Origin: Opitutia bacterium
GTDB taxonomy: Bacteria > Verrucomicrobiota > Verrucomicrobiia > Opitutales > UBA953
Direction: 5' to 3'
DNA length: 32,123 bases
Assembly (NCBI GenBank): GCA_947377865.1
Contig: CANCHK010000022.1
Location: 1 to 32,123 of the forward strand
Below are positions 4,418-22,841 of this stretch, piece by piece. Within the stretch, counting starts at the first letter, position 1; every line of letters starts with the position of its first letter. The notes under the pieces were generated by a model, which worked only from the letters and a program-made list of their open reading frames with translations, was not told the DNA's origin and did no database searches. The position numbers and the translations under genes were made by a program.

Positions 4418-5545
4418 TCAGGGCGCCGGCGGCAGGCGCACGGCCTTCCGGATGTAGGCCGGCACGTCCACGTCCTGTCCGTCGATGAAGGTCATCGGCG
4501 TGCCACCAAAGAGACCGCGACGCATCGATTCTTCCGTCGCGAACTCGAAGATGGGCTGGGCTGGATCCTCGGCCTTGGCGCCCTTCTTGGGCTTCGCCGG
4601 CGCCTTCGGCGCAGGCAACGAGGCGCCGAGCACCGAGACTTCGATGCGGTCGCCGAGCGACGGGTCAATGCGCGCACAGAGGACCGTGGACGTCTCGCCA
4701 CCGAAACGCGTGCGGACGGCGCCGACTGCTTCAAAGGCCTCGGTCGAGGTCATCGCGAGACCGCCAGCGACGGTAACGAAAAGTGAGGCGACCTTAGCGA
4801 CCGAGCCAGGCGCATGGGCGAGAGGACAATCGCAGGCCGCGCGGGCAGCCTTCATCGCGGCGCCTTCTCCCTCGCCGACGCCGTAGGCAAAGAGCGTAGG
4901 CGAGCCAGGCGTAGAAAGAAGTGAACGAAGGGCAGCTGGATCGACCGCGATCAGCGCGCCAGGTGCAAAGGCCGAAGCTAGGCCGCGGAGCGCGCCGGCA
5001 ACCCAGTTGTCCGCCGCCGCGAAAGATTCAGATAACGGAGCATCGGGCGTGACCTGCTGGAGGAGGAGATCGTTGTGCACGACGACGAGCCCGTGACACT
5101 TCTGGCCGAGCTTCACCGTGGCGTCATTGGCCTGGCGCATGCGACGCTCGCCTTCGTGCGAGAACGGCATCGTGGCGAAGGAGAGTACAGTCGCGCCGCA
5201 CTCGGCGGCGAGGCCAGCAACCACCGAAGCGGCGCCACTACCGGTGCCGCCACCGAGGCCGGTGACAAGCACGACGACGGGGATTCCGGCAAAGAGACGG
5301 CGCAGTGCGGCTTCTTCGGACTCAGCGGAAGCAAGACCGAGAGCGGCTTCACCACCGGTACCCATTCCGCGCGTCTGCGCGCGGCCGAGCTGCAGCGTGG
5401 CGGCCTGTCCGGAAGGCAACGAACGCGCGTCCGTGTCGAGCAACGCGACGGCGACTTCGGAGGGGAGCTCTGCCGACAGGCGCGTGACCATCGAGCAACC
5501 CGCTCCGCCGAGGCCGATCAGAAGAATGGAAGCGGGCGATGACAT
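4418..5545 (-). CDS. ftsZ: Cell division protein FtsZ (divergent, altered T7 loop)
   Basis: A 375-residue tubulin-like GTPase that forms the division ring. The nucleotide site is recognisable: GLGGAG (11-16), TDARSL (38-43), the tubulin signature GGGTGSG (98-104), and PFSHEGERR (127-135), which retains the Glu and Arg that contact GTP in E. coli. The T7 loop reads ALIAVDPAALR (197-207): the Asp aligned with E. coli Asp209 is kept (Asp202), but those aligned with Asn207 and Asp212 are Ala200 and Ala205. The C-terminus DVDVPAYIRK (358-367) matches the FtsA/ZipA-binding peptide after a short Ala/Lys/Pro linker. The start at 5545 is chosen because it lies 1 base after the ftsA stop and directly precedes the Rossmann strand; an upstream in-frame start at 5620 would lie inside ftsA. 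Context makes it the division FtsZ. Confidence 0.93.
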   Translation of the reverse strand: MSSPASILLIGLGGAGCSMVTRLSAELPSEVAVALLDTDARSLPSGQAATLQLGRAQTRGMGTGGEAALGLASAESEEAALRRLFAGIPVVVLVTGLGGGTGSGAASVVAGLAAECGATVLSFATMPFSHEGERRMRQANDATVKLGQKCHGLVVVHNDLLLQQVTPDAPLSESFAAADNWVAGALRGLASAFAPGALIAVDPAALRSLLSTPGSPTLFAYGVGEGEGAAMKAARAACDCPLAHAPGSVAKVASLFVTVAGGLAMTSTEAFEAVGAVRTRFGGETSTVLCARIDPSLGDRIEVSVLGASLPAPKAPAKPKKGAKAEDPAQPIFEFATEESMRRGLFGGTPMTFIDGQDVDVPAYIRKAVRLPPAP

Positions 5546-5546
5546 C

Positions 5547-6779
5547 TTAGAGGCGGAAGAGTTCCTTGAGCTGATCGAGGAAACCTCGAGGGCGACGCAC
5601 CGGCGGAGGAGCATCAGCAATTGCCGCGGTCATGAGGCCCACCACGCCGGCGTACTCAGGCTTACGGAGGGATTCATTTTCGAAGTGAGGAACCCCCACG
5701 CGGGCGGAGAGGCCGGTCACTAACTGGACCGCCTCGATTGCGTCAGCCAGGCTCGCCGAACCGCCGGTGAGAATCACTCCCGAAGGAATCATATTCTGGT
5801 CCAACTTCACGGCGTGACCAGGGAAGATCGCCTCAAGGCGGCGAAGCACATCCTTGCGTACGAACTCGATCGTCTCCTGGTAGCGCAGCGAGAGTACCTG
5901 CGTGATCGTGCCGCGGTTGAACTGCTGGTCGCCCACGCCCTTATCGCCGTCCTTCCAGATAGTCTGGTTCACGTCGTTCTCACGGTGCATCGCGGAACCA
6001 AAGCGGAGTTTCAGATCCTCGGCCGTTTCGCGGCTGATGCGGAGGGCCACGCTAAGGTCGTTAGTCAGATGCTCACCGCCCACGGGGATGGAGCCCGCGC
6101 AGAGAATGTGCTCCTTGTAGTAGAGAATCCAATCGGTCGTGCCGGCACCCATATCGATGACGAGCACGCCCTGTTTATCGGCGTCGCTGGCCGTCGCGCA
6201 GGCCGCCGCGTGCGAGGCCAGGATGAAATCGCGAACCTTGATGCTCATGCCGTTCACCATCCCCACGCGCATGCGCATATTGCCCTCCTCCATCGTCACG
6301 CGCCAGAAATTCACCTCGAGGCGCTTACCCGCCATGCCCACCGGATTACTTACTGGACGATTGTCCAGCATCGTCGGCTGGCGCATGTAGAGGATGGTCG
6401 TGCGGCCAGCCGGCGGCTCGAGGCGCTTGGCAGAAAGGATCGCATCGCTGACGTCCTTGGCCGTAATCTTACCGTCGTGCGCCGGCACGGCGACAAAGCC
6501 CTTTACGCGCTCCCCTTCAGCAGCGGGACCAGACAACGAAAGATAGATCTGCTCGACGGCCCGTCCAGAGCCGCGCTCGATGTCGTTGACGACCTCATGG
6601 ACGCACTGCGTCAGTTTCTCGAGGTCAGTAACGGTGCCTTTCACCACACCATCGGTTCGGCGCTCGCTGAAGCTGAGCATGCGGGCCTTGCCGTCAATAA
6701 TCTGTCCGAGGAGGCTCGCAGTCTTGTGCGTGCCGATGTCGATGACGGCGATAAGGGAAGGAAGGGGCTTGGGGGTCAT
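5547..6779 (-). CDS. ftsA: Cell division protein FtsA
   Basis: A 410-residue actin-like ATPase that anchors FtsZ to the membrane. Phosphate-1 motif VIDIGTHKTAS lies at residues 12-22, phosphate-2 motif VIDMGAGTTDW near 200, and the adenosine motif ILTGGSASLADA in the last quarter. The C-terminus RGFLDQLKELFRL is a short amphipathic helix of the FtsA membrane-targeting type. Length fits the family (about 420). The ATG overlaps the ftsQ stop as ATGA (6776-6779) and the stop is 1 base before ftsZ. Adjacent ftsQ and ftsZ, together with the intact FtsZ C-terminal peptide, support a working FtsA-FtsZ pair. Confidence 0.96.
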   Translation of the reverse strand: MTPKPLPSLIAVIDIGTHKTASLLGQIIDGKARMLSFSERRTDGVVKGTVTDLEKLTQCVHEVVNDIERGSGRAVEQIYLSLSGPAAEGERVKGFVAVPAHDGKITAKDVSDAILSAKRLEPPAGRTTILYMRQPTMLDNRPVSNPVGMAGKRLEVNFWRVTMEEGNMRMRVGMVNGMSIKVRDFILASHAAACATASDADKQGVLVIDMGAGTTDWILYYKEHILCAGSIPVGGEHLTNDLSVALRISRETAEDLKLRFGSAMHRENDVNQTIWKDGDKGVGDQQFNRGTITQVLSLRYQETIEFVRKDVLRRLEAIFPGHAVKLDQNMIPSGVILTGGSASLADAIEAVQLVTGLSARVGVPHFENESLRKPEYAGVVGLMTAAIADAPPPVRRPRGFLDQLKELFRL

Positions 6780-7759
6780 CGGAGAGGGGGGGTGGGGGCG
6801 GGAACGAGGCGAGGTTCAGGGACGGGCGAGGCAGCGTTGGTGCGATTCTGAATCGACATCTTTAGCACGTAGGCCTGCGAGGTCGTACCGGGGCGACGGA
6901 GCAGCTCGTCGACGTTAATACGCGAGAGGAGCGCCAGCTCATTACGCCAGTTGGCGGTGGAGAAGACAATCTCGACCAGAGCGGGGCGATCCATCGGCTG
7001 CGTGCCAGGACGGACGGTCACGCGCAGGTTAGAGCCAGGAGAATCCTCTTGGGCACCAAAGCAATCCCGTAGCGAGACCGCTGACCACTGCTTGTAGAGA
7101 TTCGGGTAGGTCGTACGCACAGCGAGCAGGAACGGGGCGGCGATCTCGATGCCCTCAATCAGCATCTTGTCGTCGGTGCCGGTGGCACGGTAATCCTGAA
7201 TCTCTGGTAGGTTGCGTATAGCCTGCTCAGGATAGCCTGCACCGGCGAAGGTCTGTCCGTCGGAGGCCACGAGGCGCACGAGCATCGGCGTACCCTTGCC
7301 GGGCAAGGAGGCAATCTTGGCAATGGCGAGGCGCTCTCGAACGATGACGTCGAGCGTGCCATCGGTGTGGCGGCGGACGTCGGCAGCGACAACCTGGTTA
7401 TCCACCTCGAGGTCGGCCTTGATAGAACGGACGTCGCGGGCGAAGCCTTCGGGTCCATTGGCGACAACCTTCTTCACGAAATCGGCCGAAAGGAAGCCAT
7501 CCGTCTTGTAACGGAGCGAGCCCGCGGCGGGCGTGCCAGTACCCGATTCGTCGACGGCCCACCAGAGCACTCCCACGAGGACGATGAAGAAGCCCACCGC
7601 CAAAATCGTGGGCAGCTTCGAGCGCACCGCGCGTTTGCGGCCAATCTCACCTTCAGGAACGCGGTTGACGTCCTGAGGTACGAGCGCGCGCCAGTCGCGG
7701 TCAGCCTGCCCCATAAAGGCGTCGCGGCGTTTGCTGAAAAGATTGTCAAAGAAGCCCAT
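6776..7759 (-). CDS. ftsQ: Cell division protein FtsQ
   Basis: A 327-residue bitopic membrane protein: a basic cytoplasmic N-terminus (1-48, with GRKRAVRSK just before the membrane), a single transmembrane helix at about 50-68 (ILAVGFFIVLVGVLWW), then a periplasmic part with a POTRA-like segment (strand-turn-strand region ending in DGTLDVIVRERLAIAKI) and a C-terminal beta-rich domain. FtsQ sequences are poorly conserved, so the call rests on topology, the VRER-type motif and position between ddl and ftsA. The start lies 2 bases after the ddl stop, and the stop overlaps ftsA. It recruits FtsL and FtsI-FtsW at the septum. Confidence 0.88.
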   Translation of the reverse strand: MGFFDNLFSKRRDAFMGQADRDWRALVPQDVNRVPEGEIGRKRAVRSKLPTILAVGFFIVLVGVLWWAVDESGTGTPAAGSLRYKTDGFLSADFVKKVVANGPEGFARDVRSIKADLEVDNQVVAADVRRHTDGTLDVIVRERLAIAKIASLPGKGTPMLVRLVASDGQTFAGAGYPEQAIRNLPEIQDYRATGTDDKMLIEGIEIAAPFLLAVRTTYPNLYKQWSAVSLRDCFGAQEDSPGSNLRVTVRPGTQPMDRPALVEIVFSTANWRNELALLSRINVDELLRRPGTTSQAYVLKMSIQNRTNAASPVPEPRLVPAPTPPLR

Positions 7760-7761
7760 GT

Positions 7762-8685
7762 TCAGCGGCGGACGGGTTGGGTGAAACGCGAGAGAGCCGG
7801 CGCAGCCATGCGACGGACGAGGGCGGGGAAGTCGAGGCCGACGCAGGAAGCGCTCTTAGGCATCAGGCTGGTTTCGGTCATGCCGGGCATCGTGTTGATC
7901 TCGAGGAAATAGAACTGGCCGTCAGGCTCAAGGAAGACATCCGCGCGGGCGAAATCCCGGCAACCGCACGCGGCGAAGAGCCGGGCAGCGGCCGCGCTAA
8001 TGGCAGCGGTGAGCGCCGGACCCACGGGCGCGGGGAAACGATACTCTGAGGCACCCTTGGTATACTTGGTCTTATAATCATAGACGCCGGTGAGGGCGAC
8101 GATCTCGACGAGCCCCATGGGCCGGCCGTCCAGGAGGCCGATGGACATCTCCCGGCCGCGCAGGCGGCGCTCGGCCATCCACCGGCCGGACGCGGGGATC
8201 TCGGCGAGGGCCTTGGCCACCTCGGCCGGTCCGTCCAGCATGTAGAGACCGACGCTGCTGCCTTGGTCGGAGGGCTTGATGACGATCTGTTCGCCCAAGG
8301 CGGCCACGAGCGCGGCGGCCGTGGGCTTGGCGGCGCCGGCGAAGGCGACCTCGGGGATGGCGGGCACGCCGGCGGCGCGCATGGCGGCCTTGGTCGCGAC
8401 CTTATCCATGCAAAGGCGGTTGGCGGACGACGAGCAGCCGGCGAAGGCGATGCCGCGGGCTTCCATCTCGGCCTGGGCGCGTCCGTCCTCGCCCCAACCC
8501 CCGTGCAAGATGGGCAGGACGACATGTCTGGAGCCATCAAGCCAATCAGGCAAAGCATCGGTCTCGAGCTCGACGAGGCGGGCGCCTGGTAGAACAGAGG
8601 AAACGGCCAGGCCAGATCGCAGTGAGACTTCACGTTCCGAGGAGAGGCCGCCACAGAGGACGATGAGCTCAGGGGACAAGGTCAT
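7762..8685 (-). CDS. ddl: D-alanine--D-alanine ligase
   Basis: A 307-residue ATP-grasp enzyme that joins two D-Ala for the peptidoglycan pentapeptide. Visible are LCGGLSSEREVSLRSG near the N-terminus, HGGWGEDG, the ATP-binding loop KPSDQGSSVGL, and the C-terminal EINTMPGMTETS that ligates magnesium and substrate. Length is normal for the DdlB type. The ATG at 8685 forms an ATGA overlap with the murCB stop and has an AGGA-type ribosome site about 10 bases upstream, so it is preferred over an in-frame ATG at 8700. Ddl is a separate gene here, unlike the MurC-Ddl fusion known from Chlamydia. Confidence 0.96.
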   Translation of the reverse strand: MTLSPELIVLCGGLSSEREVSLRSGLAVSSVLPGARLVELETDALPDWLDGSRHVVLPILHGGWGEDGRAQAEMEARGIAFAGCSSSANRLCMDKVATKAAMRAAGVPAIPEVAFAGAAKPTAAALVAALGEQIVIKPSDQGSSVGLYMLDGPAEVAKALAEIPASGRWMAERRLRGREMSIGLLDGRPMGLVEIVALTGVYDYKTKYTKGASEYRFPAPVGPALTAAISAAAARLFAACGCRDFARADVFLEPDGQFYFLEINTMPGMTETSLMPKSASCVGLDFPALVRRMAAPALSRFTQPVRR

Positions 8686-10958
8686 AGGAGGTCCTTCCAT
8701 TCGCGGCCGAGCGCGACGATCTCCGGCTGGAGTTCGACGCCCTGGCGGGACTTCACCTCGGCACGGACTGTGCGCATGAGTTCGATGAAGTCAGCAGCCT
8801 TGGCATCGCCAGCGTTGACGAGGAAGTTGGCATGCGTGGGCGAGACGGAGATCGGCCCGACGGCGCGGCCCTTGAGCCCGCTGAGGTCGATGAGACGGCC
8901 AGCCTTGTCGCCTTCGGGGTTCTTGAAGACGCAGCCCGCACTAGCCTCGCGAGGCTGGGAGACTCGACGGCGGGCACCCATATCGTCCATCCGCGCGCGG
9001 ATGGCGGCAGGTTCGTCACGGCCGGCGGAGCGGAGCACGGCGGAAAGCACCACCGAGCCGTGCAGCTGCGGGCAATCGCGATAGAGGGCGTCGAAGCTGT
9101 CGCGACGGGCGGCGCGCACCCTGCCCTGCGGCGTCAGCCACTCGATGGATTCGACGATGTCGAAGATCCAGCCGCCCATCGCGCCGGCATTCATGCGCAA
9201 CGAACCGCCGATTGTGCCTGGGATACCTTCCAGAAATTCAAAGCCCTTCCAGCCTTCGCGCGCGGCGAATCCGCAGAGTTCCTTGAGTCGGGTGCCGCCG
9301 CCAACGCGGAAGCGACCTTCGCCGAGGTCGGTGACCGTGCCCCAATGGGCCGCATCGAGATGCAGGATGAGGCCATCGTAGCCTTCGTCAGGGACAAGCA
9401 GGTTGGAACCGCGGCCGAGCGCGAACCAGCGCAGGTCAAGCTCCGCGGCCGCACGAAGCAGGACGACGATATCATCCACGTTCGCCGGCTCGGCATACCA
9501 GCGAGCGGCGCCGCCGAGACCGAGGGTCGTACGACGCGCGAGCGGCTCGTTGGCACGCAGGACGCAGCCTGCGGAAAGTCGACCTGACACGAGGTCGGGC
9601 AAGTCGAGCGAAAGGATGTCGGCACCACGGCGGCGAAGCACCTTGGCGTAGCCTTCGGCGTCGCGTTCGATGTCACCTGCACCCACGAAGGCCACGACCG
9701 TATCAGCACCTTGGGCGAGTCCGTCGAGCACGGCCGGCAAGGCGCAGCGATCTTCGACGAGGCGGTGCGACGAACCATTGACGATGGCGTCGGAGCCGCC
9801 GCCTTCGACGGCGGCTTCGCCCGCAGAGTAGACTGGCAGGACGAGGGCGTGGTCGGCGACGGCGAGCGCGTCGCGGAATTCGCGCGCATACTGGCGCGTA
9901 CGCGTGTGACGGTGCGGCTGGAAGACGACAATGAGCCGGCCCGCGTGCGTCTCACGCACCCACTTGAGTAGCGCGGCAATCTCCGTCGGATGGTGCGCGT
10001 AGTCGGCGAGCACGCGCAATCCAGTGCGCTCGAAGAGCACGTCTTGCCGGCGGCGAATGCCGCGCCAGCGTGCGAGCGGCTCGGCAACGAGGCCACCGGT
10101 GATGAAATGCGTGACCGCGAGCGCCAGCGAGGCGTTGGAACGGTTGAACGTGCCGGCCACCGGCAGATTGAATTGGCCCGCCGGGAAACGTCCTTCGAGC
10201 GAGACGACTGAGGAAGCATGGCCGCCCTGGACGAGACGGAAGGAATAGTCGCCGCCCTCGCCCACCCGGATGACCGGCACCTTGAGCCCGGCCGTTAGGC
10301 GTTCGAGGCGTTCGTTGCCGACCGGAATGACCACCGCGGTGCGCGTGCGTTCGAAGAGCGCACGGAACACGCCCTCGAGCGCGGCTTCGTCGCGATAATA
10401 GTCAGGGTGATCCCAGTCGAGGTTGACCGCCACCGTGACGTCGGGCGAGAACGCGCCGATCGTGCCGTCGCTCTCGTCGACCTCGGCCACGACCCAGGGG
10501 GAGGAAGACGAGGCGCGGGCCGGCGGGAAAGTCGGGTCACGGAAGAGGCCACCGAGCACGTATCCGAAATCGGCTTCTGCGCTGGCGAGCGCGGCGACGA
10601 GCAGGCCGCAGGTGGTCGTCTTGCCGTGACTACCACAGATTGCGACGAAGCGTCGGCTAGCGACGGCTTCGGCCAACAGCTCGCCGCGTCGAAGCGTGCG
10701 GACCTCATGGCGTTCGGCGAGCGCGAGGGCAGCATGACCGGGCTTCACCGCACTGGAGCGTCCGACGACGGAAGGACGGCGGCCGGCGGTCCAGGGATCG
10801 CGGAGCAACGGGATATCGGCGTTGGCGAGCTGTAGCTCCATCGGGCTACCCGTCGAGTCGTCCCAGCCGGAGACGTCCCAGCCCTCCCCTTTCAAATAGA
10901 TGGCGAGCGGACCGACACCCATACCACAGGCGCCGAGCATCCAGGCGGAGGCGCTCAT
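8682..10958 (-). CDS. murCB: MurC-MurB fusion: UDP-MurNAc--L-Ala ligase / UDP-GlcNAc-enolpyruvate reductase
   Basis: A 758-residue fusion. Residues 1 to about 450 are MurC: the N-terminal nucleotide fold GACGMGVGPLA (9-19), the P-loop GSHGKTTT (109-116), EVDESDG (159-165), ADYAHHPTEI (318-327) and QPHRHTRTR (347-355). Residues from about 465 are MurB: the FAD-binding NEPLARRTTLGLGGAA (470-485), GRGSNLLV (515-522), GIPGTIGGSLRMNAGA (578-593) and SAGCVFKNP (673-681). MurB reduces enolpyruvyl-UDP-GlcNAc to UDP-MurNAc, the substrate of MurC, so one chain catalyses two consecutive steps in the cytoplasm. The proton-donor position, Ser229 in E. coli MurB, aligns with Cys676. ATGA overlaps with murG before and ddl after fix both ends. 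No frameshift or stop separates the halves. Confidence 0.95.
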   Translation of the reverse strand: MSASAWMLGACGMGVGPLAIYLKGEGWDVSGWDDSTGSPMELQLANADIPLLRDPWTAGRRPSVVGRSSAVKPGHAALALAERHEVRTLRRGELLAEAVASRRFVAICGSHGKTTTCGLLVAALASAEADFGYVLGGLFRDPTFPPARASSSSPWVVAEVDESDGTIGAFSPDVTVAVNLDWDHPDYYRDEAALEGVFRALFERTRTAVVIPVGNERLERLTAGLKVPVIRVGEGGDYSFRLVQGGHASSVVSLEGRFPAGQFNLPVAGTFNRSNASLALAVTHFITGGLVAEPLARWRGIRRRQDVLFERTGLRVLADYAHHPTEIAALLKWVRETHAGRLIVVFQPHRHTRTRQYAREFRDALAVADHALVLPVYSAGEAAVEGGGSDAIVNGSSHRLVEDRCALPAVLDGLAQGADTVVAFVGAGDIERDAEGYAKVLRRRGADILSLDLPDLVSGRLSAGCVLRANEPLARRTTLGLGGAARWYAEPANVDDIVVLLRAAAELDLRWFALGRGSNLLVPDEGYDGLILHLDAAHWGTVTDLGEGRFRVGGGTRLKELCGFAAREGWKGFEFLEGIPGTIGGSLRMNAGAMGGWIFDIVESIEWLTPQGRVRAARRDSFDALYRDCPQLHGSVVLSAVLRSAGRDEPAAIRARMDDMGARRRVSQPREASAGCVFKNPEGDKAGRLIDLSGLKGRAVGPISVSPTHANFLVNAGDAKAADFIELMRTVRAEVKSRQGVELQPEIVALGREWKDLL

Positions 10959-12043
10959 ACGGCGGCGAGCCGGCGGCGGCCGGCGAGCGCAATGGTTTCG
11001 TGGGCAAGTTCTTCCCAGCGGTTAGCAGCATCAGCCAAGGCCAATGCATCACGCATCACTGAGAGCGCGGCGGAGTCGGCAAGACGGGCGAAGACGACAG
11101 ACGAGAGCCGAGGGAGCTCTGATTCGAATAATAGGACGGCAGCGCCGCACTGCTCGGACTGACGGGCATTAGCGGTCTGATGATCATCGGCCGAACGGGG
11201 ATAAGGGACGAGCACCGCCGGCGTGCGGCAGACAGCCAGCTCGGCGAGCGTGCCGGCGCCGGCGCGCGTGACCGCAAGGTCGGCGGCGGAATAGGCCATC
11301 TCCATCTGATGACAGAATGGGACAAACTTTACCCATGAATCGGGGGAGCGGATCTCATCCTCACGTCCGCCTGGGCCGGTGAGGCAGAGTACATGCACCC
11401 CGCGGATGGCAAACTCTTCGAGATTATCCTCCACCCAGCGGTTGAGCGCCGTCGCGCCTTGGCTGCCTCCGGTGACGAGCACCAGCCGGCCCGTTGGCGG
11501 CAGGCCGAGCGCACGGCGGGCGGCGTCGCGCGCCTGCGGACGGATTTCGGCGCGCACGGGATACCCGGAGTCATGTTGACGCTCCGCGGAAAGACCGGGG
11601 ATTCGCACGCCGGCGGGCAGGTGAATCGAGTCAGCGAAACGCGCAATCAAGCGGACGGCCTTGCCGGGCTTGCGGTTGGCTTCATGCACCAGCACCGGGA
11701 TGCCGCACAAGCGGCAGGCCAGCGAAGGACCGAGGCTCATGAAGCCGCCGAAGCAAACTAAAGCGTCCGGACGGAAGCGGCGGAGCAGGCGCCAAGACGA
11801 CCAGACCGCACCGAGCAGCGCGGGAAAGAAAAGGAGCTTCGCGACGAGACCCGGGCCGAAGCCTCGTCCCTTGCCTGACACGAAGTTCAGGCGAGGGTAG
11901 TTAGAAGTCATCCGCGCGTCGACGACCTTGCTGCTGACGATCAGCAAGCACTCATGTCCGTCGTCCGTGAGCCGCTGGGCGAGGGCGATACCCGGGGCGA
12001 GATGGCCACCGGTCCCGCCGCACGCGAGCAGCACGCGGCTCAT
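10955..12043 (-). CDS. murG: MurG, lipid II-forming GlcNAc transferase
   Basis: A 362-residue GT-B glycosyltransferase that adds GlcNAc to lipid I at the inner face of the cytoplasmic membrane. Motifs are GGTGGH near the N-terminus (9-14), FGGFMSLGP (98-106), VHEANRKPGKA (119-129), GGSQGA (192-197) and, in the C-terminal domain, SAADLAVTRAGAGTLAEL, which binds the UDP-sugar. Length is typical. Both ends are fixed by ATGA overlaps with ftsW and murC. The order ftsW-murG-murC is the common dcw order. Confidence 0.97.
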   Translation of the reverse strand: MSRVLLACGGTGGHLAPGIALAQRLTDDGHECLLIVSSKVVDARMTSNYPRLNFVSGKGRGFGPGLVAKLLFFPALLGAVWSSWRLLRRFRPDALVCFGGFMSLGPSLACRLCGIPVLVHEANRKPGKAVRLIARFADSIHLPAGVRIPGLSAERQHDSGYPVRAEIRPQARDAARRALGLPPTGRLVLVTGGSQGATALNRWVEDNLEEFAIRGVHVLCLTGPGGREDEIRSPDSWVKFVPFCHQMEMAYSAADLAVTRAGAGTLAELAVCRTPAVLVPYPRSADDHQTANARQSEQCGAAVLLFESELPRLSSVVFARLADSAALSVMRDALALADAANRWEELAHETIALAGRRRLAAV

Positions 12044-13254
12044 GCGCGCGCCTCCTTTGCCACGAAAGCCGGACGGGCCGATTCGCGGATGCAGTTGAGG
12101 ACGAGGCCGACCATGCAGCCCATGATGACGAGATTGGTACCGCCGTAGCTGATGAACGGCAGCGAGATGCCCTTGGTCGGCAGCAGGCCCGTGACGACTC
12201 CCATATTAATGAGCGCCTGCAGGACGAGGAAGAGCGTGGCGCCGAGGCAAATATTGAAGCGATAGAGGTCCGACGAGTAGCGCATGGCGCGATAGGCGCA
12301 CCAGAAGATCCCGAGGTAAACCAAGGCCACGAGCGTGGTTGCGACTAGACCGTATTCTTCACCGATAACCGAGAATACGAAGTCCGTGTGGGCCTCAGGG
12401 AGGTAGGCTCGGCCTTGGATTCCATTGGCAGCCCCCTTACCCGTTAGACCGCCCACACCGAAGGCCACCATGCCTTCGAAGAGCTGATAGGCCTCGTCCC
12501 CACGCTTCTCCCAAGGTTCAAGGAATGAAGTGAAGCGGCGCAGTCGATTTGGCCAGTTGAGGATGAGGATAGTGAACCCGCTGAGTCCGATCAGGAAGGT
12601 CGGGACCACATACGCCCAGCGCACTCCCGAGACGAGCATCATGATGCCACCCACCGCGCAGCAGAGGAGAATCGTGCCGAGGTCAGGGCCGAGCGCAATA
12701 AAACCGGCAATCAGCAGCAGGATGCCGACGGGCTTCACGAAGCCTTCTCGGCAGTCAATCCAGCCGCGCCGGGTGAATATATAGGGTTCACGAGAGCTCA
12801 GCTGGTAGATCGTGAACTTGTTCGGCAACGTATGGCGCTGCATGCGCGCAAGGAAATCGGAAAGCACGACCACCAGGGCGAGCTTACCGAGGTCCGACGC
12901 CTGCAGGCGGAAGAAACCGAAGTCGATCCAGCGCCAAGAGCCGTTGACTGAGACCCCGATATGCGGGATGCGCGCGAGGAGCATCGCCGTGCAGGCGCCA
13001 CCGAGAATCCACCAGCGCCATTCACGGGCTTTGTCGAGGTTGATGCGGAAGAAGGCGAAGCCAGCGACGAAGGCGATCGGCACGTAGGCGAGCTGGCGAT
13101 AGAACGCCGCGGTGCGGTTGCTCGACGAGAGCGAAATGCCCGCGCTGTATTGCACCACCAACCCGAACACCGCGAGGGATAAGGCGAGCAGCAGGATACC
13201 CAAGGAGTACCCACCCAGGGCTCCCGGACTTTCCTGCTGCTGCTTAATGACCAT
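12040..13254 (-). CDS. ftsW: FtsW, septal peptidoglycan glycosyltransferase (SEDS family)
   Basis: A 404-residue polytopic membrane protein (about ten helices) that polymerises lipid II together with FtsI. Signature segments are GVSVNGSWRWID (100-111), LGPDLGT (188-194), the PEAHTDFVF block (286-294) with the likely catalytic Asp291, and LPFISYGG near the C-terminus (365-372). The loop at about 138-170 between two transmembrane helices is roughly 20 residues longer than in E. coli FtsW. Position beside murG, with murD and ftsI in the same run, favours FtsW over RodA. The ATG at 13254 lies 21 bases after the LysM gene; the stop overlaps murG. Confidence 0.95.
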   Translation of the reverse strand: MVIKQQQESPGALGGYSLGILLLALSLAVFGLVVQYSAGISLSSSNRTAAFYRQLAYVPIAFVAGFAFFRINLDKAREWRWWILGGACTAMLLARIPHIGVSVNGSWRWIDFGFFRLQASDLGKLALVVVLSDFLARMQRHTLPNKFTIYQLSSREPYIFTRRGWIDCREGFVKPVGILLLIAGFIALGPDLGTILLCCAVGGIMMLVSGVRWAYVVPTFLIGLSGFTILILNWPNRLRRFTSFLEPWEKRGDEAYQLFEGMVAFGVGGLTGKGAANGIQGRAYLPEAHTDFVFSVIGEEYGLVATTLVALVYLGIFWCAYRAMRYSSDLYRFNICLGATLFLVLQALINMGVVTGLLPTKGISLPFISYGGTNLVIMGCMVGLVLNCIRESARPAFVAKEARA

Positions 13255-13275
13255 GACGCGGCGGTTGAAATGAGC

Positions 13276-13818
13276 TTACTTCTTGTCCGCAGGAGCCGGC
13301 GCAGCTTCGGCCGCCTTGGTGCCAGTGAGGGGCACGAGCTTGAGCGGAGCGAAGGTCGGCGCAGGAGCCGCAGGTGCCGGCGTCGAGGACTTCGTGGGGG
13401 TCGCCGCGGACTTCGTGCCGGCCTTTGTAGGAGCCTTGGATGCGGCCGGGATGGTCAGTACCTGACCCGGCTTGAGGTCGGCATTAAGGCTGAGTTTATT
13501 GGCCTTGGCGAGGTCGGCACGGGCGACCTTCTCGCTCGCGGCGATGCTCATGAGGGTCTCACCCTTCACCACCGTGCGCTTAGCACCGGCGCCGACGGGG
13601 CCGACGGGAGTGAGCTTAACAGGGGCGGGCGTCGGAATACGGTCGACGACCGGGACAGGTACGACGGCCGTGGCGGAACGCGCGCCAGCCGAGTAGGCGG
13701 CGAGGTCGCCGGGCTGTTCGAAGCCGCTAGTGCTTCGGCAGCCGTTGACGCCGACGAGGACGGCGATGACGCAGAGGTGCAGAAGCACGACGGCAGTAAC
13801 AGTAATGATGGGACGCAT
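13276..13818 (-). CDS. LysM-domain exported protein inside the dcw cluster
   Basis: A 180-residue protein. The N-terminus has a hydrophobic segment (about 4-24) ending VNGC, so it may be a lipoprotein with Cys27 modified, though the lipobox is weak (V-N-G-C); otherwise it is a membrane anchor. A Pro/Val-rich linker leads to one LysM domain at about residues 80-124 (TVVKGETLMSIAAS ... LKPGQVLTIP), a peptidoglycan-binding module. The C-terminus is a low-complexity Ala/Pro/Lys/Thr tail. Residues 27-180 are predicted to lie outside the cytoplasmic membrane. It sits between murD (36-base gap) and ftsW (21-base gap), unlike most neighbours, which overlap. A role in septal wall binding or remodelling is inference from context. 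Confidence 0.82.
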   Translation of the reverse strand: MRPIITVTAVVLLHLCVIAVLVGVNGCRSTSGFEQPGDLAAYSAGARSATAVVPVPVVDRIPTPAPVKLTPVGPVGAGAKRTVVKGETLMSIAASEKVARADLAKANKLSLNADLKPGQVLTIPAASKAPTKAGTKSAATPTKSSTPAPAAPAPTFAPLKLVPLTGTKAAEAAPAPADKK

Positions 13819-13854
13819 GGTGGTGGGACTGGGTTGGGTGGGTGGGTTGGAAAA

Positions 13855-15129
13855 TTAGACGCGATTAGCGAGGGCGGACGCGGCACGTTCGAAAATGAGG
13901 CCACGTTCGGCGTAGCCGCGAAACTGGTCGAAGCTCGAGAAGCCCGGACTCAGGAGGATGACCGAAGGAGCGTGCGCATCCTTGGCGGCCGCGACGACGG
14001 CGTCCTGCAGGGAGGGATAGCATCGGGCCGGCTTGCCCAGCTCGTCGAAATGACGCTTCAACTCGTCGGCGGTCTCGCCGATGAGGTAGGCGGATTCAAT
14101 CAGCGGGGCGATGTTGCGTACGAAGCGGGCGAGGTCGCCGCCCTTCCACTTCCCTCCCCCGATCCAGCGGACCGGGACGCTGAACTGCGAGAGCGCGGCC
14201 TGCACGGCATGGAAATTAGTGCCCTTCGAATCGTTCCAGAACTCAACGCCCTTATTCTCCGCGACCTTGCGGAGCCGATGGGGCGGGACGCGGAATAGTC
14301 GGGCGGCTTCCTCGAGGTGACGCATCGGGATGCCGCGCGCTTGCCAATACTTGCAAAGGATGGCCCAGTTCTCGCGCTGCGGCCAGGAATCAAAGACGGA
14401 ACCTGCGGGCACCGTCTCGGCAACCTCGGCGCGCGTGGCGATAATCGCCTCCGCCGGAAGCTCGATGCCGAACTCGCGGGCGGAGGACACAACGGATTCG
14501 CCGACGACGAGGATGCCTCCGGGCATCATGCGTTCGATCAGCCGAAACTTCGCACGGAAATAGCTCTCAAGGTCACCATGACGGTCAAGGTGATCCTCGT
14601 CAAAATTTGTCCAGAGCACCGCCTCGGGCGTGAAGTGGCGGAGATCCTCCGCCTGGAAGGAGCTGACCTCAACGATGGCGACGAACGAACCGTTCGAGAC
14701 CGTACGGTGGAGCGACGTCAGTGGCAGGCCGACGTTGCCGCAGGCGATAGCGTCGAGTCCGGAACGCTTAAAGGCGAAAGAAAGGAACTCCGTGATAGTC
14801 GTCTTGCCGTTGGTGCCGGTGATGGCGATCGCCGGTCCGGTCCAGAGCAGCGCGCCGAAATCCAGCTCAGTGAGGCAATGTAAGCCAGCGCGGCGTGCGG
14901 CGAGGATCCACGGGTGCGACTGCGCAAAGCCAGGACTATACACTAGAAGATCGTGACGCGCGGCCTCCTCCGGACCGAACTGCCGGTTCTCCCCACGTTC
15001 GTCATAGATGACCGAAGCGAAGCCGGCCGAAGCGAGAGATTCCGCGACAGAACGCCCGCTCACGCCCTCGCCGAAGACGGCGGCGGGCCGGGTGAGCCGG
15101 CGTCGGAGGGATTCGGGGAACTCGCTCAT
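13855..15129 (-). CDS. murD: MurD, UDP-MurNAc-L-Ala--D-Glu ligase
   Basis: A 424-residue cytoplasmic Mur ligase that adds D-glutamate. The N-terminal Rossmann-like part contains VFGEGVSGRS (18-27), the ATP loop GTNGKTT (105-111), and GNVGLPL slightly further on. The middle domain has EVSSFQAEDL and NFDEDHLDRHG, and the C-terminal part NDSKGTN and GGGKWKGGD, all characteristic of MurD. The start at 15129 is chosen for its ATGA overlap with mraY; an in-frame start at 15165 would run 36 bases further into mraY. A 36-base gap separates it from the LysM gene. Confidence 0.96.
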   Translation of the reverse strand: MSEFPESLRRRLTRPAAVFGEGVSGRSVAESLASAGFASVIYDERGENRQFGPEEAARHDLLVYSPGFAQSHPWILAARRAGLHCLTELDFGALLWTGPAIAITGTNGKTTITEFLSFAFKRSGLDAIACGNVGLPLTSLHRTVSNGSFVAIVEVSSFQAEDLRHFTPEAVLWTNFDEDHLDRHGDLESYFRAKFRLIERMMPGGILVVGESVVSSAREFGIELPAEAIIATRAEVAETVPAGSVFDSWPQRENWAILCKYWQARGIPMRHLEEAARLFRVPPHRLRKVAENKGVEFWNDSKGTNFHAVQAALSQFSVPVRWIGGGKWKGGDLARFVRNIAPLIESAYLIGETADELKRHFDELGKPARCYPSLQDAVVAAAKDAHAPSVILLSPGFSSFDQFRGYAERGLIFERAASALANRV

Positions 15130-16238
15130 CGGAGCTTCAGGGAGAGCAGGCCGAGGAGGCCGCACAGAAGGGAGAGAATCCAGAAGCGGGCCACGACCTT
15201 GGTTGCGGGCCAGCCCTTCTTTTGGAAATGGTGATGGATGGGCGTCATCAGGAACAGGCGCTGTCCGCCTGTCCGCTTGAAGTAGGCCACTTGGAGGATG
15301 ACCGAAGCCGCCTCGACAACGAACACGCCGCCGACAATCGCGAGGAGGAACGGCTGGTGCATCAGGCAGGCCACCGCACCGAGGCCGCCGCCGATTCCAA
15401 GCGCTCCTACGTCGCCCATATAGATTTCGGCCGGAGCAGCGTTATGCCAGAGGAAGACTAGGCTCCCGCCGACGAGGGCGGAGCAGAAGACCGCGAGCTC
15501 GCCCGCCCCTGGGACATAGCTGATGCGGAGGTAGGTCGCGAACTCATGGTGACCCGCGAGATAAGCGACCGCGCCGAGAATCGTAGTAGTGATGAGCACG
15601 CAGCCAATGGCGAGACCGTCGAGGCCGTCGGTGAGGTTGACCGCGTTGGAACAGCCAACGCAGACAAGGACGAAGAACGCGCCGGCGATGCCGAGGCAGG
15701 CGAGGAACGGCCAGCCGAGCGACTTCGCTGACCAGAGCGGCCCATTAAGCACGGGTAACCAAATCTCACAAAGGCTATCGCGGTAGGCCGGATCGAGCAG
15801 GACGATGCCGAAGGCGATCAGTGCGACGAGCCCCTGCCCCGCCAGCTTCATGCGCGCGGAAATACCATCGGAACTTCCACTACGGACCTTCAGCCAGTCA
15901 TCATAGAGGCCGACGAGTCCCATACCAATCAGGCACCAGAGCGCGGCGAGTACGAGAACGTTGAGTCGGGCCCAGAGGAGTACCGAGGGGATCATTGCCA
16001 CGGCGATGATAAGGCCGCCCATCGTCGGGACCTTGCCGCCTTCCTTGGCGAGCTCACCCATCAGTTTGGCCGAGCGCTCGGGCTGGCGCAGGCGGGCGAG
16101 CATGGCGATGAGCCGCCCAGAGAAAAGCATGCCCAGCAGCAAGGCCGTCACGCCGGCCAGGATTGCACGGACGGAGATATACTCAAAGAGACGGAAAGGC
16201 CCCCAAGTGTGGACGAGTTCGCTGAGACGGTAAAGCAT
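15126..16238 (-). CDS. mraY: MraY, phospho-MurNAc-pentapeptide translocase
   Basis: A 370-residue integral membrane enzyme with about ten helices that transfers phospho-MurNAc-pentapeptide to undecaprenyl phosphate, giving lipid I. Motifs are KVPTMGG (69-75), GLYDDWLKV with the paired aspartates (Asp113, Asp114), NLTDGLDGLAIG (201-212) and the histidine cluster PIHHHFQKKGW (333-343). Length is slightly above E. coli (360). The start is 1 base after the murF stop and the end overlaps murD by ATGA. Confidence 0.97.
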   Translation of the reverse strand: MLYRLSELVHTWGPFRLFEYISVRAILAGVTALLLGMLFSGRLIAMLARLRQPERSAKLMGELAKEGGKVPTMGGLIIAVAMIPSVLLWARLNVLVLAALWCLIGMGLVGLYDDWLKVRSGSSDGISARMKLAGQGLVALIAFGIVLLDPAYRDSLCEIWLPVLNGPLWSAKSLGWPFLACLGIAGAFFVLVCVGCSNAVNLTDGLDGLAIGCVLITTTILGAVAYLAGHHEFATYLRISYVPGAGELAVFCSALVGGSLVFLWHNAAPAEIYMGDVGALGIGGGLGAVACLMHQPFLLAIVGGVFVVEAASVILQVAYFKRTGGQRLFLMTPIHHHFQKKGWPATKVVARFWILSLLCGLLGLLSLKLR

Positions 16239-16239
16239 C

Positions 16240-17613
16240 CTAGTGGAAAGAGAGCGCGGAGCGCAGGGATTCGGGCAGGCAACGTTCGAGGGCGAAGGAA
16301 CGGCTGCCCTTCAGGAAGACGAAGCCGCGATGTGCGGCGACGCGGGCGGCGGCATCCTCGACGGAGGCTGCGACGGAAAGCTCCACCCCCGGGAGCGCAA
16401 CTCCCTGCAGGAACGCGGCCGACTCTCCCCCGAAGGCGACCACGTGGTCGCCGGAGCGGAGAGGCAGCTGCGCTCCGCAGTCGCGGTGGAGTTCCGTGGA
16501 GGTGGGACCGAGCTCGGCCATGCCGCCGAGCAGGAAAAGACGAGGGGCCGAGGCCGGGCGGCTGAGGCGATCGAACGCACGAGCCGAATCCAGCAGTGAG
16601 GCCGGGCTGGAGTTATAACAATCGACGTAGAAAGTGGAGTCACCTTCGATGTGCACGCTACCGCGACCAGCGGGCGGCATCCATTTAGCCGTCACGGCGG
16701 CGAGGGCGTCCGCTGCCCGACCGACCTCGAGTGCGGCGACGAGCGCAAGCGCGGCGTTGCGGGCCAGACCGTCAGAGATTGCAGCGAGCGGGAAGACCTC
16801 TCCATCCAGCACGAGTGAACGGTGGCCACGCGCATCAGCGAGAAAGGATGCATGCACCAACCGAGCCGGCGTAACGACCGGAGCGGCTTCGCCTTCGAAC
16901 TGCACAGCGATACACTTAGCGGCATGAGCCGCAAATTCAGGCCAATCGAGCAGCGCAGCCGGGACGATGGCCCGGCCACCGGGGGCGAGCGCGGCGACGA
17001 GAGTGGCCTTCTCGCGGGCAATGCCGGCGAGCGAACCGACGCCTTCGAGGTGGACCGGGGCGACGTTGGTGACAATCGCGAGGTCGGGGCAAATGATTTG
17101 GGCGGAGACGCCGAGTTCGCCGGGCACGCTCATGCCGGCCTCGATAACGGCGAAGCGGTGAAGCCCGTGCTCGATACGCAGGAGCATCAGCGGAACGCCG
17201 ATGAGGTTATTCAGGTTAGCTTCGGTGACGAAAGCTTCGACGCCGAGGAGTGCGGCGAGTAATTCCTTCGTGGAAGTCTTTCCCACGCTTCCGGTCACGC
17301 CGATGACGCGTCCCTGGAAGTTCGCTCGCCAACGGGCGGCGACGCGACGGAGAGCGACGAGCGGATCATCCACGACGAGCTGCGGCAGGTCGTCGGCGAC
17401 GGCTCGCCCGACCAAAGCACAAGCGGCGCCTTGCTTGCGGGCGGCGCCGAGGAAGTCATGGCCGTCGCGCCGGTCGGTGCGCACCGCCACGAAGACGTCG
17501 CCGCTGCGCAGGGCGCGAGTGTCCGTACCGAAGCCCGTGACCGCAGAGTGGGGCGCGACGGTCCAGTGGCCTTCGGCCCAGGCAGCGAGGTCGACTGAAG
17601 AGAAGGTCGGCAT
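16240..17613 (-). CDS. murF: MurF, UDP-MurNAc-tripeptide--D-Ala-D-Ala ligase
   Basis: A 457-residue Mur ligase that adds D-Ala-D-Ala, the Ddl product, to the tripeptide. It shows an N-terminal FGTDTRALRSGDVFVA substrate motif (28-43), the ATP loop GVTGSVGKTSTKE (105-117), EANLNNLIGVP (MurF-specific) and EAGMSVPGELG. The start is ATG at 17613, sharing one base with the murE stop (TGATG); a GTG at 17616 just upstream, which would make a GTGA overlap, is an equally close alternative. The stop is 1 base before mraY. Confidence 0.95.
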   Translation of the reverse strand: MPTFSSVDLAAWAEGHWTVAPHSAVTGFGTDTRALRSGDVFVAVRTDRRDGHDFLGAARKQGAACALVGRAVADDLPQLVVDDPLVALRRVAARWRANFQGRVIGVTGSVGKTSTKELLAALLGVEAFVTEANLNNLIGVPLMLLRIEHGLHRFAVIEAGMSVPGELGVSAQIICPDLAIVTNVAPVHLEGVGSLAGIAREKATLVAALAPGGRAIVPAALLDWPEFAAHAAKCIAVQFEGEAAPVVTPARLVHASFLADARGHRSLVLDGEVFPLAAISDGLARNAALALVAALEVGRAADALAAVTAKWMPPAGRGSVHIEGDSTFYVDCYNSSPASLLDSARAFDRLSRPASAPRLFLLGGMAELGPTSTELHRDCGAQLPLRSGDHVVAFGGESAAFLQGVALPGVELSVAASVEDAAARVAAHRGFVFLKGSRSFALERCLPESLRSALSFH

Positions 17614-19136
17614 CACGACTGCGCACCCCTCCGGAGCTCAAGGATTTCACGGACGATTTGACGGTCGTCGAAGGGCACCACGGTATCGGCGAATTCTTGG
17701 GTCGTCTCATGGCCCTTGCCCGCGATGACGACGCAGTCGCCGGACTTCGCGGCGGCCAGCGCACGACCGATAGCGTCGCGGCGGTCGGCGACAAACTCCA
17801 CGGTCGGCAAAGGGCCGAGGCCTTCGCGCATATCAGCAAAGATTCGCTCAAGGCTCTCCTTGCGCGGATTATCGGCGGTGGCCCAGGCGAGGTGTGCGAG
17901 TTCAGCGACAGCCTTGGTCATCGCGGGACGCTTGCCGCGATCGCGGTCGCCGCCGCAGCCGTAGACGCAGAGTACGCGGCCTGGCGTGATGTCACGGAGC
18001 ATACGCAAAGCGTTGCGAAGCGCGTCGTCAGTGTGGGCGTAGTCGACGAAGACCGGGAAAGCCTGGCCTGCTTCGACACGTTCCATGCGGCCCGGCACGC
18101 CCGGGAAGGAGGCGAGCACTGGAGAGAGAGACAGCGGGTCGCGCCCGAGGGCGGCGACCATCGCGAGAGCGCAAAGGACGTTCGAGACGTTGTAACCGCC
18201 GGGCAAGGTGGACTTGAAGATGGAAGAACGGCCTTCGTGACGGACAGTAAAGACGGCGCCACCTGTATCGAGGGCGAGGTCGGTCGCACGGAGGTCGGCG
18301 TCGGCCGCCAGACCGAAGGTGATTACCTTACCGCGCCGGCGGCAAGCCTCGGCGAGAACGCGCCCAGCTGGATCGTCGATGTTGATGACGCAGACATCGG
18401 GCACCGAGCCATTGCGTCCGTCGAACAGGGCCGTCTTCGCATCAAGATACGAGGCGAGGTCGCCATGGTAATCGACGTGGTCACGGGTCAGGTTTGTGAA
18501 TGCAGCAACGCGGAAGGCGAAGCCATGGACACGGTCTTGGTGAAGAGCGTGGGAACTAACCTCGAGGCAAGCGCCCGCACAGCCCGCATCGACCATCTGC
18601 CGGAAGAACGCGGCGAGGTCGGCGGATTCCGGCGTCGTCTTGTAAGAGGGGATAGAGCGACGGCCGAGGTGGTAGCGGACCGTGCCCACCAGACCCCACT
18701 GCGACCCATCGGACTGTAGAAGATGGCGAAGGAGCGTGGAGATGGTCGTCTTTCCATTGGTACCTGTCACTCCGACCAACTGAAGGGCGGCCTCGGGATG
18801 GCCGAAGAAACGACGGGCGACCTCGGCTAGGACGCGGCGCGGATCGGGGACTTGGGCGGCAGCCACGGCGGGCAGGCCCGCGACCGGTTCGCCAGAGATA
18901 ATGGCGGCAGCCCCGCGGGCAATCGCGTCGTCGAGGAAAGCATGGCCATTGGCACGCAGCCCGGGCAGTGCGAAGAAAAGCGATCCGGGGATGATGCGGC
19001 GGCTGTCTGTCACGATGGACGAGATACGCACAGACCCTTCACCAGTACGGCCGAGCACCGGGAGTCCTTGCAGAAGCGAGTTGAAGGTCGGGCGCTCCAT
19101 GGCGGCAGGCATCGTCATCGGGGGAGGAAGCGTCAT
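17613..19136 (-). CDS. murE: MurE, UDP-MurNAc-dipeptide--meso-diaminopimelate ligase
   Basis: A 507-residue Mur ligase that adds the third amino acid. Visible are TDSRRIIPGSLFFAL (43-57), the ATP loop GVTGTNGKTT (122-131), LEVSSHAL (191-198), a candidate carbamylated Lys in YLDAKTALF (Lys234), FVDYAHTDDAL (363-373) and the specificity motif DNPR (422-425), which marks meso-diaminopimelate rather than lysine. So the wall is expected to be the A1-gamma Gram-negative type. The start at 19136 is chosen for its ATGA overlap with ftsI; an in-frame start at 19205 would add an Arg/Pro-rich stretch read from ftsI codons. ATG codons at residues 7, 9 and 13 are further alternatives. Confidence 0.95.
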   Translation of the reverse strand: MTLPPPMTMPAAMERPTFNSLLQGLPVLGRTGEGSVRISSIVTDSRRIIPGSLFFALPGLRANGHAFLDDAIARGAAAIISGEPVAGLPAVAAAQVPDPRRVLAEVARRFFGHPEAALQLVGVTGTNGKTTISTLLRHLLQSDGSQWGLVGTVRYHLGRRSIPSYKTTPESADLAAFFRQMVDAGCAGACLEVSSHALHQDRVHGFAFRVAAFTNLTRDHVDYHGDLASYLDAKTALFDGRNGSVPDVCVINIDDPAGRVLAEACRRRGKVITFGLAADADLRATDLALDTGGAVFTVRHEGRSSIFKSTLPGGYNVSNVLCALAMVAALGRDPLSLSPVLASFPGVPGRMERVEAGQAFPVFVDYAHTDDALRNALRMLRDITPGRVLCVYGCGGDRDRGKRPAMTKAVAELAHLAWATADNPRKESLERIFADMREGLGPLPTVEFVADRRDAIGRALAAAKSGDCVVIAGKGHETTQEFADTVVPFDDRQIVREILELRRGAQS

Positions 19137-20929: not shown

Positions 20930-21306
20930 CGAGAGCGCGGTCCTCCCTGCCCACCCCAGGAGAGGGAGGCGATTTCGCGGGCCGTCATCCGGGGGCTCGC
21001 GGAAAGCATGGGGGTCGGGGATGCGACCGCCGGGAAATAACGTACCCAGACCACCTGTTCGGGGACTGGGGGCTTAAGCGCGTCACCGATGCGCTGCTGG
21101 AGCTGGAGAGTGTCGACGGACTGGTCGCGCTGACGGCGGACCGTATCGAGCTCCTTCTTAGAAAGGGAGATGTCACGCTCGATACGCTGGATACGGCTAC
21201 CGATGGTGTCGGCCTCGACGCGCAGGCGCATGATGTTGATTGTCCCGACGGCGAAGGCGCCGACGGCGGCGAACAGGAAAGCCCAGGTGAAGAATCGCGG
21301 ACTCAT
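20926..21306 (-). CDS. ftsL: FtsL-like bitopic division protein
   Basis: A 126-residue protein with a very short cytoplasmic end, one transmembrane helix (about 6-25) and a following heptad-like coiled coil (about 30-75, with RIQRIERDISLSKKEL), then a Pro-rich tail. FtsL proteins share topology rather than sequence, so the call rests on this and on position between rsmH and ftsI. It would form a complex with FtsQ and a FtsB-like partner and activate FtsW-FtsI. No ftsB candidate was seen in the window. Both ends are ATGA overlaps. Confidence 0.82.
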   Translation of the reverse strand: MSPRFFTWAFLFAAVGAFAVGTINIMRLRVEADTIGSRIQRIERDISLSKKELDTVRRQRDQSVDTLQLQQRIGDALKPPVPEQVVWVRYFPAVASPTPMLSASPRMTAREIASLSWGGQGGPRSR

Positions 21307-22220: not shown

Positions 22221-22272
22221 TCGGCGGGCTGTGAATAAGGTGTGAGTAGTGTAAGTAACTTCTGGATACGCG

Positions 22273-22725: not shown

Positions 22726-22741
22726 TGCGTATGGGGAGTTG

Positions 22742-22766
22742 CCCCCAGATGACCCACTTTTCCCCA
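22742..22766 (-). promoter_or_regulatory. Candidate MraZ operator (10-bp-period G-tract repeats)
   Basis: On the minus strand three 5-base units, TGGGG, TGGGT and GGGGG, are separated by exactly 5 bases each (AAAAG, CATCT). This is the TGGGN-N5 spacing known for MraZ boxes. A further degenerate TGGTG copy lies one period upstream. The array ends 17 bases before the mraZ ATG. A TTGACG hexamer at 22779-22784 (minus strand) could be a -35 element, but no good -10 follows at the right spacing. Confidence 0.72.
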
Positions 22767-22841
22767 CAGCCCACCACCCGTCAAGATTTTAGCCCCCGAT
22801 CACACCAATTTCTTGTTAACACCGTGCCCAGGGAAGGCTAT

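Follow-up and report, generated by a model that had tools for sequence, protein, structure and literature searches.

Can a bacterial cell divide with an FtsZ that retains only one of the two acidic residues of its T7 loop, and how would such a protein hydrolyse GTP? The two T7 aspartates have been described as conserved across species and as key to the chemistry or the assembly of FtsZ (PMC8936486). The question is raised by a locus of an Opitutae-type bacterium. The window, by which is meant the whole 32,123-nucleotide stretch of DNA analysed here, carries an ftsZ gene whose product was predicted to lack the aspartate aligned with E. coli Asp212. Two consequences had been proposed: the lineage either uses another residue for catalysis, for example Asp202, or possesses an FtsZ that hydrolyses GTP slowly and forms more stable filaments. 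The features relevant to the argument, in ascending order of position, are listed below.

4418..5545, minus strand: ftsZ, 375 amino acids (translation; PF00091 and PF12327 above cut-off)
4445..4468, minus strand: C-terminal conserved peptide DVPAYIRK, residues 360-367 (by eye)
4925..4957, minus strand: T7 (synergy) loop and start of the helix that we take to be H8, residues 197-207, ALIAVDPAALR (gapless alignment, DNA)
4931..4933, minus strand: codon of Ala205, at the position of E. coli Asp212 (DNA and alignment)
4940..4942, minus strand: codon of Asp202, at the position of E. coli Asp209, the sole T7 acid left (DNA and alignment)
4946..4948, minus strand: codon of Ala200, at the position of E. 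coli Asn207 (DNA and alignment)
5141..5167, minus strand: PFSHEGERR, residues 127-135, with Glu131 equivalent to E. coli Glu138 and Arg135 to E. coli Arg142
5234..5254, minus strand: GTP-binding motif GGGTGSG, residues 98-104 (sequence, conserved columns)
5547..6779, minus strand: ftsA, directly upstream of ftsZ (TIGR01174, 235.4 bits; cut-off 175.85)
6776..22767, minus strand: remaining genes of the dcw (division and cell wall) cluster (family scans and ORF translations)

The ftsZ gene and its surroundings

The product of the gene is recognized by the Tubulin/FtsZ domain PF00091 (100.2 bits, cut-off 33) and by the FtsZ_C domain PF12327 (34 bits, cut-off 27). On the NCBIfam FtsZ equivalog TIGR00065 it scores 188.2 bits, below the cut-off of 295.2, a threshold that is passed by 26 of the 178 genomes in a draw from the window's order and by 14 of 144 in a draw from the phylum. 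Verrucomicrobial FtsZ proteins have been placed among the most divergent FtsZs (PMC9871819, PMC12283558). All 51 solved structures listed as phmmer matches of the window protein bear the name FtsZ, and when the solved structures were queried with a profile made from an FtsZ alignment, the matches were FtsZ and distant tubulin-like chains only.

The motifs GGGTGSG, PFSHEGERR and DVPAYIRK, originally described as intact, are all found in the translation. The last of these is the C-terminal conserved peptide of FtsZ, which is predicted to bind FtsA. Within the window's genus the GTP motif and the equivalents of Glu138, Arg142 and Asp45 are kept: the Thr of the motif is substituted in 4 of 43 sequences, and the Arg142 column is occupied by Arg in all 45 sequences that cover it. 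The gene evolves under purifying selection, with a median dN/dS of 0.13 over 575 pairs among 42 genus sequences.

A single base separates ftsZ from the stop codon of ftsA. The remainder of the cluster comprises ftsQ-like, ddl, murC-murB fusion, murG, ftsW, murD, mraY, murF, murE, ftsI-like, ftsL-like, rsmH and mraZ-like genes, of which murF, murE, ftsL-like and mraZ-like were named from ORF translations alone. A family scan of ten cluster genes, ftsA included, matched nine to a family, with murG, ftsW, the ftsI-like gene and the murC half below the family cut-off and the ftsQ-like gene giving no family match at 1e-10. The dcw cluster is for the most part recognizable. The murC-murB fusion gene, at 8682-10958 on the minus strand, has a counterpart reported from Verrucomicrobium spinosum (PMC12283558).

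The original prediction had suggested a search for a second ftsZ elsewhere in the genome. No second PF00091 match emerged from the window's own genome (75.7% complete; E values up to 10), and four of four genus mates, 97–99% complete, have one match each and no second tubulin-family gene. A second FtsZ or a tubulin partner is thus set aside for these genomes on the evidence of PF00091. Two FtsZ copies do occur on separate contigs in G060 and G070, which belong to the window genus, and in a further genome, G228, perhaps as a result of mixed strains or contamination. Purifying selection, the kept motifs, the place among ftsA and the dcw genes and the lack of a second copy together indicate that the window FtsZ is most likely the working FtsZ of the cell. 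It is a genuine cell-division FtsZ of an Opitutae-type bacterium, the only one found and probably the single one.

A T7 loop with one acid

The T7 loop of the window protein reads A-V-D-P-A-A and departs from the canonical N-x-D-x-x-D motif. Ala200, Asp202 and Ala205 stand for E. coli Asn207, Asp209 and Asp212, with residues and numbering as originally given. Two independent alignments of the loop, one made by phmmer against M. tuberculosis FtsZ and the other by MAFFT against E. coli K-12 FtsZ, are both gapless, which rules out misalignment in the window and its genus.

The same arrangement characterizes the genus. Its 45 readable sequences derive from 43 genomes, the window's own among them, G060 and G070 contributing two each; two further loci end before the loop. 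The 209 position is Asp in 45 of 45, whereas the 212 position is Asp or Glu in none (43 Ala, 1 Ser, 1 Val). Synonymous variation is evident in the 42 sequences whose length allowed a codon alignment, in which the Asp is encoded by GAT in 25 and GAC in 17 and four different Ala codons are found at 212, so that a single base error does not explain the change. A sequencing error in the T7 codons, which had been named as a possible refutation, is ruled out by the agreement of all 45 sequences.

Asp202 is followed by Pro in all 45 readable genus sequences. In the window this residue is Pro203 (4937-4939, minus strand), standing for the Phe210 of 62 out of 62 outgroup sequences, and the D-P pair is also present in all 4 readable sequences of sister genus g5 and in a few other families.

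Distribution of the two acids in the phylum

An FtsZ match is present in 66 of the 79 genomes of the window's family, 148 of 178 in the order draw, 139 of 141 in the class draw and 143 of 144 in the phylum draw, the wider draws overlapping in part with the narrower ones and the last two including members of the window's order. In the two outgroup phyla the figures are 30 of 31 and 31 of 31 genomes. The FtsZ genes read are part of all matches: 292 loci, followed by a hold-out of 60 sequences, with several loci taken per family inside the order and, as far as possible, a single one for each family beyond it. Asp and Glu both count as acid in all figures for positions 209 and 212. Loci L032-L068 were excluded as repeats of numbered genomes and L001 as a repeat of L002. 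L106, the second, canonical FtsZ (400 bits) of G228, a genome of the order, was kept out of the group counts as it possibly lies on a contaminant contig. Two genus loci and one sister-genus locus are unreadable at the loop, and L176 and L199, which are the same gene, both stand inside the order count of 93. The outgroup searches were seeded with loci from Burkholderiales and Selenomonadaceae and contributed the best 30 loci each; four lower-scoring extra copies and one broken fragment were left out, so that deviant extra copies may have been missed there.

The outgroups uniformly display N-D-D, with both acids in 62 of 62 sequences. In the sister genera of the window's family the 209 acid is present in 19 of 19 readable sequences and the 212 acid in 1 of 19; in the other families of the order the respective counts are 86 and 8 of 93. 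The 212 position is Thr, Ser or Ala in 55 of the 73 sequences of the order's first set, and the eight of the 93 sequences that retain an acid there belong to families f2, f8, f20 and f22, the alignment of f22 being unsure. Asn207 is kept in 71 of the 93 sequences from other families of the order and in 0 of 45 from the window genus. The missing 212 acid is not the oddity of a single gene; most of the order shows the same loss. Elsewhere in the class it is usually the opposite acid, that at 209, which is lost: other orders of the class retain the 209 acid in 27 and the 212 acid in 63 of 74 sequences. In other classes of the phylum the numbers are 40 and 32 of 55.

One sister genus, f1.g4 (L078-L084, L086), has an FtsZ active site more eroded than that of the window, with the Arg142 and Asn207 equivalents lost in 8 of 8 sequences each and the Asp45 equivalent in 7 of 8.

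Mutual avoidance of the two losses

Very few FtsZs of the phylum have lost both T7 acids. The 286 readable in-phylum sequences include 45 with both acids, 172 with the 209 acid only, 59 with the 212 acid only and 10 with neither. When each of 90 families is reduced to one representative, the corresponding numbers are 20, 36, 31 and 3, and independent losses would lead one to expect 14.7 families with neither acid. Fisher's test gives p 1e-7, or 7.5e-5 when only the 71 families from other orders and classes are counted. Random redrawing of the representatives, repeated 1000 times, left 3–5 with neither acid and gave a largest p of 7e-6. The alignment of the loop is less sure in the most divergent families, f4, f22 and f31; after removal of all sequences below 250 bits, the Fisher p is 2e-6 (81 families) and 0.0011 (62 outside the order), and the tree-based p, from the analysis described below, is 0.005. 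The hold-out of 60 further sequences, which is not fully independent because it draws mainly on families represented in the first set, contains 15, 22, 19 and 4 sequences in the same four classes (p 0.0014; outside the order p 0.021). Two of the four hold-out sequences from family f7, within the order, have neither acid.

The avoidance is also apparent on a poorly resolved 94-row tree, computed after removal of the T7 columns, in which 11 of the 91 inner branches are starred. At least 15 changes are required at position 209 and at least 14 at 212. A model in which the two losses depend on each other fits better (LR 19.9, p 0.0005): the fitted rate of 209-acid loss is 0.561 with the 212 acid present vs 0.045 without it, and that of 212-acid loss is 0.445 with the 209 acid vs 0.085 without it, which means that an acid is lost some 4–13 times more slowly once the other has gone. 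Three replicates, with other representatives, with another tree method and with high-scoring sequences only, returned p values of 0.0013, 0.00099 and 0.0049. Against the dependence stand a simulation of independent losses, in which the count of tips with neither acid did not reach significance (fraction 0.088), and a test of independent pairs, which had no more than three pairs on supported branches to draw upon.

Might these changes reflect general decay of an FtsZ under relaxed constraint in the whole phylum, with no special logic in the T7 loop? The shortage of genomes whose FtsZ exceeds the NCBI cut-off (14 of 144 in the phylum draw) would fit such a view, as would the missing Arg142 (8 of 8) and Asp45 (7 of 8) equivalents of f1.g4 and the 13 small genomes of the order in which no FtsZ match is found. 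Under decay the losses should be either independent or joint, and this is indeed the general tendency, the median log odds ratio being +0.31 over 3474 pairs of outgroup-conserved columns. The 209-212 pair, however, lies at -2.57 and has the smallest avoidance p of all 3474 pairs (2.9e-7; the next is 5e-4). Ten column pairs are more negative, but have nearly empty cells and p values of at least 0.006. The dN/dS of 0.13 in the window genus likewise speaks against decay, an explanation that we consider improbable.

A structural reading of the either-or pattern holds that helix H8 has the 209 Asp as its N-cap and the 212 acid as a capping partner, so that the stability of the helix would be at stake. 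The Pro that follows Asp202 throughout the genus (45 of 45 readable) suits a helix start. In 30 representatives of families with the 212 acid only, the six commonest residues at 209 are Gly (9), Ser (8), Thr (6), His (3), Asn (2) and Ala (1). The residues mostly found there are good N-caps. A Ser or Thr N-cap would nevertheless free the 212 acid to be lost as well, and yet only 3–5 of 90 representatives have neither acid. Moreover, solved filament structures show the two residues holding the attacking water (PMC8936486). Helix capping is, on these grounds, a doubtful account of the pattern.

A new residue elsewhere might instead restore hydrolysis at full speed, a candidate being the Gly-Asp/Glu at positions 72-73 of the T3 loop. 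Asp or Glu occupies position 73 in 77 of the 90 family representatives vs 8 of 62 outgroup sequences, and the neighbouring equivalent of Gly71 helps to hold the water in S. aureus FtsZ (PMC8936486). The acid at 73 is, however, as much a feature of families with both T7 acids (17 of 19) as of those in which one or both are lost (60 of 71; Fisher p 0.73), and M. tuberculosis FtsZ has that Asp together with a normal T7 loop. Given this lack of association, the T3-loop acid was rejected as a compensation, and full-speed hydrolysis restored from elsewhere is very unlikely.

What a single acid could do

The pattern in the sequences is real and well supported, and it is from this pattern, joined to published work on the two aspartates, that we infer a mechanism. 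The S. aureus residue D210, equivalent to E. coli D209, places the attacking water by a swinging movement. D213, equivalent to E. coli D212, is fixed in position, supplies the environment and is water-bridged to Arg143; both D210N and D213N suppress assembly (PMC8936486). Changes of Asp212 had been said to abolish GTP hydrolysis. The published figures point instead to a reduction: the GTPase of E. coli D212A stands at 7% of the wild-type level in a value cited by PMC8142252, that of the equivalent change in chloroplast FtsZ1 is ∼15% (PMC8142252), and that of D212G is almost tenfold down, with less than 1% in an earlier assay cited in the same report (PMC7320174). Rings of D212G are static in vitro (PMC7320174), and D212G complements an E. 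coli ftsZ null only with a genomic suppressor (PMC5405962). In cells that also contain wild-type FtsZ, FtsZ(D212A) with FtsA forms septa that complete division (PMC4383033).

The roles of the residues in S. aureus and the residual activity of the D212 mutants suggest a one-acid FtsZ that uses Asp202 and is slower than that of E. coli, but not dead. On balance we favour the view that the window FtsZ is functional with one T7-loop acid, Asp202, rather than two, probably with slow GTP hydrolysis. Like D210 in S. aureus, Asp202 of the upper subunit would position and polarize the water that attacks the GTP held by the subunit below, and the second acid, which would normally tune the water network together with the arginine, would be absent. 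Slower hydrolysis and longer-lived filaments would be expected, with turnover still going on. By analogy with the D212 mutants, slow hydrolysis is likely. The suggestion that another residue such as Asp202 serves in catalysis is favoured, indirectly, by the retention of the 209 acid in the genus (45 of 45), the sister genera (19 of 19) and the order's remaining families (86 of 93), and by the lower fitted rate at which either acid is lost when the other has already gone. A counterpoint is provided by the 10 of 286 sequences with neither acid, whose owners presumably still divide. Position 212 of E. coli FtsZ is taken here to be equivalent to tubulin residue 254. At that residue alpha-tubulin has the catalytic Glu254 and beta-tubulin the inactive Lys254 (PMC13394414); as the equivalent of 212 decides hydrolysis in tubulin, an acid at 209 may be too weak on its own.

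Since D210N and D213N each suppress assembly in S. aureus (PMC8936486), assembly, and not chemistry, may be the reason why a single acid is retained. Asp202 would then serve the shape of the loop and the binding of K and Mg at the interface, the GTPase would be nearly absent and the turnover of filaments would depend on other proteins or on slow exchange. The septa of D212A with FtsA that complete division beside wild-type FtsZ (PMC4383033) and the static D212G rings (PMC7320174) are consistent with such a role. On the other hand, D212G fails on an E. coli ftsZ null in the absence of a suppressor (PMC5405962), and the genus keeps its GTP motif and its Arg142 and Asp45 equivalents, which would be odd if hydrolysis were unimportant. 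Assembly as the sole reason for keeping the acid is unlikely, albeit worth bearing in mind.

Returning to a catalytic Asp202, a wider proposal can be put forward tentatively. The FtsZ active site of this Verrucomicrobiota-type phylum may have split into one-acid GTPases of two types, a 209 type in this order and a 212 type in much of the rest of the class, through repeated single losses after which the second acid became hard to lose. A site relaxed in this manner could be a step toward the FtsZ-free division of the wider superphylum, and perhaps of reduced genomes in the order.

Relatives without FtsZ

Thirteen genomes of 0.8–1.1 Mb, 86–95% complete, have neither FtsZ (TIGR00065, PF00091) nor an FtsA above the TIGR01174 cut-off (G083, G098, G102, G107, G115, G130, G141, G142, G151, G152, G161, G164, G170). 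They belong to families f6, f21, f23 and f24 of the order and were found among the 20 listed of 30 genomes that have no TIGR00065 match. FtsZ-free division in reduced relatives within the order is possible. Five larger genomes of the order (G092, G109, G146, G144 and G160; 1.3–4.1 Mb, 91–98% complete) also have no PF00091 match and no FtsA above cut-off, which could be due to assembly gaps or to true losses.

The separate roles of the T7 aspartates have so far rested on mutants with poor hydrolysis, failed assembly or failed complementation. Natural one-acid FtsZs of either type, spread over many genera, would make both roles measurable in proteins whose function evolution has preserved. The pattern bears on how much GTP hydrolysis division needs and on the route from FtsZ-based to FtsZ-free division. 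A search of the open-access literature for T7-loop or catalytic-residue changes in this phylum brought up, among the titles and abstracts listed, no description of the pattern, which is no proof of novelty.

Comparison with known systems

The window FtsZ shares with canonical FtsZ, as known from E. coli and S. aureus, the GTP motif, the equivalents of Glu138, Arg142, Asp45 and Asp209, the C-terminal peptide, the place after ftsA and a gapless T7 alignment. Its Arg135 (E. coli Arg142) is the equivalent of the S. aureus arginine that is water-bridged to the 212 acid (PMC8936486). It differs from canonical FtsZ in having Ala at Asn207 and Asp212, Arg at Gln47 and Pro at Phe210, and in its score of 188.2 bits vs the NCBI cut-off of 295.2. 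The E. coli D212A and D212G mutants have lost the same position and kept D209, and are slow but still form filaments (PMC8142252, PMC7320174, PMC4383033, PMC5405962). In contrast to those mutants, the loss in the window is natural, extends over most of the order, is accompanied by many other changes and has no normal FtsZ found alongside it.

Two further systems invite comparison. The T7 loop of beta-tubulin, with Lys254 at the non-hydrolysing site, likewise has a non-acidic residue at the position of the catalytic acid (PMC13394414); there, however, a second subunit with Glu254 is at hand, whereas PF00091 detected no partner tubulin here. The FtsZ of Nitrosopumilus maritimus is a natural protein that seems to be without the T7 motif according to PMC3684127. 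As described in that report, it is also without the GTP-binding motif and gave no filaments in a yeast assay, whereas the window FtsZ keeps its GTP motif and its place beside ftsA and the dcw genes.
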